Shown: piece by piece, positions 57,772-58,290 of the stretch
Position numbering within the stretch: the stretch's first letter is position 1
Layout: the number at the start of each line of letters is the position of its first letter
DNA from: Burkholderiales bacterium
Lineage (GTDB): Bacteria; Pseudomonadota; Gammaproteobacteria; Burkholderiales; SG8-41
Length of the DNA: 64,000 bases
Assembly: GCA_030684405.1 (NCBI GenBank)
Contig: JAUXYA010000029.1
Span: 83,147-147,146 of the forward strand
Direction of reading: 5' to 3'
Position numbers and translations under genes: made by a program
The notes under the pieces: generated by a model
Databases searched by the model: none
What the model saw: the letters and a program-made list of their open reading frames with translations, nothing else
Told to the model about the DNA's origin: nothing

Positions 57772-58290
57772 TTATTTGATGCGGGCGAGGTCGCGCACGT
57801 AATTGCGCAGCACGAGGCCGTCGAAATCGACATGGCCGATACCGCGCGCATTGATCAGGCCTTTTTTATCGACGATGACCGTGGACGGCACTCCGCGTAC
57901 GCCGAAACCGCGAGCGACGTTCATGTCCTGGTCGAGCAGTGCGGGCACGGTGTAGCCGCCCTTGGCGAATATCGGCTTGACCGCGGCTTCGCCGGTGCCG
58001 TCGATCGAGATGGTGATGACCTGGATCCCGTACTTCTTCAACTCGTCATGCGCCCTCTGCACGGAGGGCAGCTCGCGTACGCAGGAGCTTCACCACGAAG
58101 CCCAGAAGCGGATGATGGTGACCTTGTTGCGCAGGTCGACGTCGCTGCCGCTGCTGCCGTTGATGCCCGGGATCTTGAACGAGGGCATCGGCGTGGGCTG
58201 CGGCACCGGCACCAGGGTATCGGCCGCGACGGGCTGCGTCAGCATCAGGACGCCACCCAGCAGGGCGGCCAGAAGTGTGTTCAGTCGCAT
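57772..58290 (-). CDS. TlpA/thioredoxin-like protein, candidate selenoprotein with UxxC active site
   Basis: Signal peptide MRLNTLLAALLGGVLMLTQPVAA; VTIIRFWASW-[TGA 58090-58092]-SSCVRELPSVQRAHDELKKYGIQVITIS; both halves in same frame (58359-58062=297 nt). Confidence 0.88.
58052..58069 (-). promoter_or_regulatory. Candidate bacterial SECIS hairpin of the TlpA-like gene
   Basis: Perfect 6-bp stem GCCCUC-CGUGCA-GAGGGC starting 20 nt after UGA; loop contains GU. Confidence 0.65.

Follow-up and report, generated by a model that had tools for sequence, protein, structure and literature searches.

The minus strand of the window (the whole 64,000-nucleotide stretch of Burkholderiales DNA that we analyzed) contains two adjacent genes, each with one in-frame UGA. 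Gene 1 (57772..58290) runs from an ATG at 58290, with a GGAGG Shine-Dalgarno sequence just 5' of it, to a TAA at 57774-57772, and it is otherwise open except for a single UGA at 58090..58092. If this codon is read through, gene 1 is predicted to encode an exported TlpA/ResA-like thioredoxin-fold selenoprotein of 172 amino acids with the active site W-U-S-S-C, in which selenocysteine (Sec) would take the place of the first, nucleophilic Cys of a CxxC motif. The minus-strand translation is VTIIRFWASW-UGA-SSCVRELPSVQRAHDELKKYGIQVITISIDG, continuing to the TAA, and in the window sequence the sole Cys of the protein is three residues past the Sec. These results confirm the original prediction, which had described a TGA where the first Cys of CxxC would be, a retained later Cys, and a frame that stays open to the stop at 57772; also as it described, the open reading frames are split into 58090-58359 and 57772-58062. 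Its interval (57772-58290) is right for gene 1 but omits the adjoining UGA-containing gene. So, reading the locus as a single UxxC selenoprotein is supported for that protein but was incomplete, as gene 1 appears to be the first gene of a two-selenoprotein unit.

The gap between the genes (57752..57771, minus strand) is just 20 bases and holds the GGAGG Shine-Dalgarno sequence of gene 2. Gene 2 (57176..57751, minus strand) extends from an ATG at 57751 to a TGA at 57178-57176 and would encode an exported (predicted) AhpC/TSA-type peroxiredoxin selenoprotein of 191 amino acids with the motif IAAFTDT-U-T. Its internal UGA (57530..57532, minus strand), within FTDT-U-TTE, is at the position of the peroxidatic Cys (TxxU). 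As encoded in the window, the protein has zero Cys, so it would be a 1-Sec peroxiredoxin.

When gene 1 is read through the UGA, its domain matches are to AhpC-TSA/Redoxin, and its best match by sequence to a solved structure is 3kcm (E = 4.5e-26), which is TlpA/ResA-type. In alignments to ResA/TlpA proteins of solved structure, the UGA lies opposite the first Cys of CxxC. In a predicted model, built from 27 orthologues (mean pLDDT 89.8), the Sec begins a helix that comes after a central strand, and the nearest folds to it are 3kcm, ResA, and TlpA. Both sequence and predicted fold thus bear out the original assignment of the protein as TlpA/thioredoxin-like. Indeed, gene 1 combines the thioredoxin fold and the AhpC-TSA/Redoxin domain with WAxW-C/U-xxC, a cis-Pro loop, and a predicted N-terminal export signal (from hydropathy). 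Like ResA, TlpA, and CcmG, it has this fold, the layout WAxW-C/U-xx-C-xxE[ML]P, and the Pro of the cis-Pro loop; unlike them, it would have a nucleophilic Sec, and no conserved cytochrome or copper-site gene is nearby. Homologues with CxxC at the Sec position include ResA and TlpA as well as the partner proteins of six divergent loci (discussed below).

Gene 2 has the AhpC/TSA fold, the T-x-x-C/U motif, and the conserved later Arg, and the homologues with Cys at its Sec position are Cys peroxiredoxins. Its predicted model (mean pLDDT 76) resembles Sulfolobus Bcp4 and the 1-Cys peroxiredoxin AhpE. By sequence as well as fold, the nearest solved relatives are 1-Cys peroxiredoxins (AhpE from Mycobacterium tuberculosis) and Bcp/PrxQ-type peroxiredoxins from Sulfolobus (2ywn, 3hjp). 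AhpE and gene 2 are alike in having a single peroxidatic residue, but gene 2 differs from AhpE and the Sulfolobus proteins in having Sec for Cys, in being probably exported (as predicted), and in having a partner thioredoxin encoded next door. Peroxiredoxins normally contain the motif PxxxTxxC, whose Pro is near-universal. In gene 2, the Thr at Sec−3 is present in all 32 orthologues, and the Pro (Sec−7) is replaced by Ile (29 of 32) or Val (3 of 32). Despite the loss of the Pro, the Thr, the Sec, and the later Arg are conserved. Judging from its sequence, gene 2 belongs to the peroxiredoxins by ancestry, and its active site has changed. Because the Pro is replaced in all 32 orthologues, its substrate may differ from that of ordinary peroxiredoxins: peroxide may not be its best substrate, or it may carry out some other chemistry.

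In the same family (74 genomes), we found 41 close homologues of gene 1 and 43 of gene 2, and every one of them has a single internal TGA and no further stops. Frameshifts and other nonsense mutations, which the original prediction had taken as signs against a selenoprotein, are absent from the 41 gene 1 orthologues. The UGA of gene 1 is at the same codon in 32 of 32 aligned loci (RFWA[ST]W-U-xx-C), and the context in gene 2 is AFTxx-U-T[TQSA]E in all 32 loci examined. Thus, orthologues of both genes keep the UGA, in frame, at the site of a redox Cys. A second family of the order also has the pair, with a UGA in both genes wherever the contig held both; four gene 2 homologues from this family, and six divergent ones, have a single TGA. 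Downstream of the UGA, both genes are under purifying selection (dN/dS of 0.10-0.23 for gene 1 and 0.02-0.16 for gene 2). We found no Cys orthologue of gene 2 at E = 1e-30 among 300 genomes of the order, and in a phylum-wide search with gene 2, the only matches outside the window were weak ones to Cys peroxiredoxins (91-99 bits). A copy of gene 1 that is 86% identical lies beside the peroxiredoxin on a 4-kb contig (L042, JAHBYZ010000094.1) of a metagenome-assembled genome labelled Rhizobiaceae. The UGA is present in its DNA, which reads TGGTGAAGC; this contig is probably misassigned and derives from this Burkholderiales lineage.

Both UGAs are followed by candidate bSECIS elements. Under published criteria, the loop of a bSECIS lies 16-37 nt after the UGA, has 3-9 nt, and has a G in its first two positions (PMC13188914). 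For both genes, the alignment of the 63 bases from the UGA is free of gaps. In gene 1, the bSECIS-like hairpin (58051..58070, minus strand; GCCCUC-CGUGCA-GAGGGC) has an apical loop of 6 nt, beginning 27 nt after the UGA, with G as its second base and U as its third, so it fits these criteria. Across the alignment, 97.5% of cells are paired, as compared to 32-70% in slid controls, and two pairs have two-sided changes: columns 27-38 are C-G in 21 sequences, U-A in 6, and U-G in 2, and columns 28-37 change from U-A to G-C in one sequence. The folding of the single sequence is unexceptional relative to shuffled sequences (z = −1.2), so the support for this hairpin comes from covariation and not from energy. 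Also, codon identity (for pairs with the same residue) reaches 0.83 in codons 8-15 past the UGA, versus 0.60 further downstream.

The hairpin in gene 2 (57482..57515, minus strand) has an inner stem (AGCUUG/CAAGUU) and an outer stem (GGCCUU/GAGGCC). Pairing is seen in 93% of cells, versus 18-62% when the hairpin is slid, and three pairs have two-sided changes, including an inner pair that occurs as U-A, G-C, and C-G. Unlike the hairpin in gene 1, it is unusually stable (z = −3.6), and the rise in codon identity is broader (0.70-0.78 versus 0.57). For a G to fall in the first two positions of its loop, the closing G-C pair has to be unpaired, and the register of the outer stem is shifted in one genus. 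An Rfam scan of the window at the gathering threshold gave no hits at all, so no family matched either hairpin.

The same genome encodes a complete Sec system: a tRNA-Sec with the anticodon UCA, SelB, SelA (whose gene adjoins that of SelB), and SelD. The gene for SelD itself carries a UGA (HGGG-U-GCK; L050, G000:C21:4962-5891). As SelB is present in 67 of the 74 family genomes, SelB alone does not discriminate between the presence and the absence of the pair. Directly downstream of selB, beside selA-selB, is a gene for a pyridine-nucleotide disulfide oxidoreductase that is thioredoxin reductase-like (L049:4174-5079, minus strand).

Could the UGAs be something other than Sec codons? If they were real stops, then the genes would be pseudogenes, products of sequencing errors, or deliberately truncated proteins, and standard ORF calling does split both of them. 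But the same codon is kept in both genes in dozens of separately assembled species, with no other stops or frameshifts, and neither the purifying selection downstream of the UGAs nor the covarying hairpins would be expected of real stops, so we give this explanation almost no credence. Another idea is that, through a suppressor tRNA or a reassignment, the UGA specifies Cys, Trp, or some other ordinary residue. Homologues carry Cys at both positions, so Cys would work there. However, the genome has the complete Sec system, with its UGA-containing SelD; hairpins follow both UGAs at SECIS spacing; and UGA is a normal terminator in this genome, as gene 2 itself ends in TGA. We consider decoding as an ordinary residue to be very improbable. 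From the sequence evidence, Sec decoding of both UGAs seems close to certain, and gene 1 is almost certainly not broken but an intact gene for a selenocysteine-containing protein. Orthologue conservation, the covarying hairpin, the Sec machinery, and the CxxC homologue in a neighboring clade all support the original reading of gene 1 as a UxxC selenoprotein. Annotation can easily overlook the system, since both genes are split by gene callers.

The adjacency of genes 1 and 2 is kept in the six genera examined, which represent two families (g1, g2, g4, g7, g9, and the second family), with varying flanks. The gap between the genes in these relatives is 20-77 nt (with starts chosen automatically). 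When we sought a third conserved gene in the operon across genera, all that was shared was the pair itself, shadow frames, and apparent TctC-type receptors, a kind of protein that is found repeatedly across these genomes. We found no cytochrome or copper-maturation gene that was common to the flanks.

In six other genomes of the same family, a divergent Sec peroxiredoxin (QFYVLDFTPT-U-I) is beside a gene 1 homologue with CxxC (loci L071-L076 in genomes G051, G054, G034, G036, G032, and G039). The gene order is reversed relative to the window, with the peroxiredoxin first and the TlpA-like partner second. Five of the six divergent peroxiredoxins have a predicted hairpin (GUCGUCC/GGACGAC, with a loop of AGUAG or AGUCG from 19 nt after the UGA) that agrees well with the bSECIS rule; folding is weaker at the sixth locus. 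Overall, the predicted Sec of the peroxiredoxin is kept in all homologues in the family above threshold, and the partner has either Sec or Cys.

The cysteine content of the two proteins bears on how they might work. The mature part of the peroxiredoxin is Cys-free in 31 of 32 loci (the exception has one Cys, four residues after the Sec), and the only Cys of the gene 1 protein outside the leader region is at +3 from the Sec. Both proteins have hydrophobic N-termini (export was judged by hydropathy). Since a peroxiredoxin that lacks a resolving Cys must rely on an external reductant, the adjoining UxxC thioredoxin is the obvious candidate. We propose that genes 1 and 2 form a unit from which two exported selenoproteins are made, with each internal UGA being read as Sec by SelB and tRNA-Sec with the hairpin just 3' of the codon. 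The peroxidatic Sec of gene 2 would be its sole redox residue and would be oxidized by peroxide to a selenenic acid, with no resolving Cys in the same chain. The Sec and Cys of gene 1 (UxxC) would then attack the oxidized peroxiredoxin via a mixed diselenide, so that reduced peroxiredoxin would be released and the gene 1 protein would be left with an internal Se-S bond. Finally, this bond would be reduced by a periplasmic supply of thiols, for example from DsbD, which is encoded elsewhere in the genome, beside an ordinary TlpA-like paralogue without a UGA.

We estimate a probability of about 0.7 that the two selenoproteins act together as an exported peroxidase, with the one-Sec peroxiredoxin being reduced by the UxxC protein. 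We infer Sec insertion itself, export, activity as a peroxidase, and the order in which electrons flow; contact between the two proteins, and electron flow between them, are suggested by their adjacency and their Cys content. A more specific proposal, which we hold tentatively and at slightly less than even odds, is that the system is dedicated to exported peroxide reduction, with electrons moving from selenium to selenium via an intermolecular diselenide, and that the sister clade has a Cys-partner version of it.

Alternatively, both proteins could be selenoproteins without there being any peroxide relay. The TlpA-like protein would serve another target, such as cytochrome or copper-site maturation (as for TlpA, ResA, and CcmG), the peroxiredoxin would be recycled by other thiols, and their co-location would reflect shared regulation only. 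The targets of ResA and TlpA are the thiols of heme and copper proteins, and the closest folds to gene 1 include both of these; the absence of the usual Pro from the peroxiredoxin also fits this explanation. On the other hand, the flanks share no cytochrome or copper-maturation gene, the pair survives both a change in gene order and a Sec/Cys exchange in the partner, and a Cys-free peroxiredoxin requires an outside reductant. So, we view the absence of a relay as unlikely, though far from negligible. As for reduction of the peroxiredoxin by the UxxC protein, the idea of Se-to-Se exchange between proteins can be put directly to the test here, as a Cys-free peroxiredoxin has a UxxC protein for its neighbor. 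Also, the Sec partner in one clade versus the Cys partner in another is a natural experiment on what selenium buys in a redox relay.

Selenoproteins of both kinds are already known. UxxC Prx-like/TlpA-like and redoxin selenoproteins have been catalogued, including a PF00578 "Prx-like thiol:disulfide oxidoreductase" with UxxC, a "UGC-containing TlpA disulfide reductase family", and a "Redoxin family protein" with UxxC (PMC13188914, PMC9312934). Gene 1 is like these proteins in having a thioredoxin fold, Sec for the first Cys of CxxC, and Cys at +3, but unlike them, it is paired with a Sec peroxiredoxin. Also, it is not of the UGC form, as two residues (SS, ST, DI, and similar) separate its Sec from its Cys. 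Sec peroxiredoxins (TxxU) have been catalogued as well (PMC9312934, PMC13188914), and the first was described in Eubacterium acidaminophilum, according to work cited in PMC13188914. Gene 2 shares the AhpC/TSA fold and the Sec at the peroxidatic position with PrxU and Prx-SUH, but it differs from them in its signal-like N-terminus, its lack of any other Cys, and the replacement of the Pro of PxxxTxxU by Ile or Val. None of the NCBIfam selenoprotein models PrxU, Prx-SUH, WAxxUGC_long, and TsoB reaches its cut-off on the two proteins from the window (gene 1 scores 70 of 300 bits for WAxxUGC_long, and gene 2 scores 48 of 270 bits for PrxU and 35 of 298 bits for Prx-SUH).

Adjacent selenoprotein genes also have precedents: the Sao and Tso operons contain adjacent selenoprotein genes of redox families (PMC13188914), and other partners are known (PMC2398784, PMC13188914). 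The pair in the window involves other families than Sao and Tso, and the pairs listed in PMC13188914 do not include a peroxiredoxin (TxxU) with a TlpA-like UxxC protein. In the openly available literature, we found no description of this pair or of selenoproteins from Burkholderiales. Thus, Sec peroxiredoxins and UxxC TlpA-like proteins are known kinds, and their pairing is without a precedent that we could find in the open literature.

As for the surroundings of the pair in the window, a gene for a DUF3095 protein (55712-57121, plus strand) is convergent with it. TctC-type substrate-binding proteins are clustered in this part of the window, at 58432-59412 (minus strand), 53488-54564, and 61369-62469; the first of these calls was checked against Pfam and the other two were made by eye.
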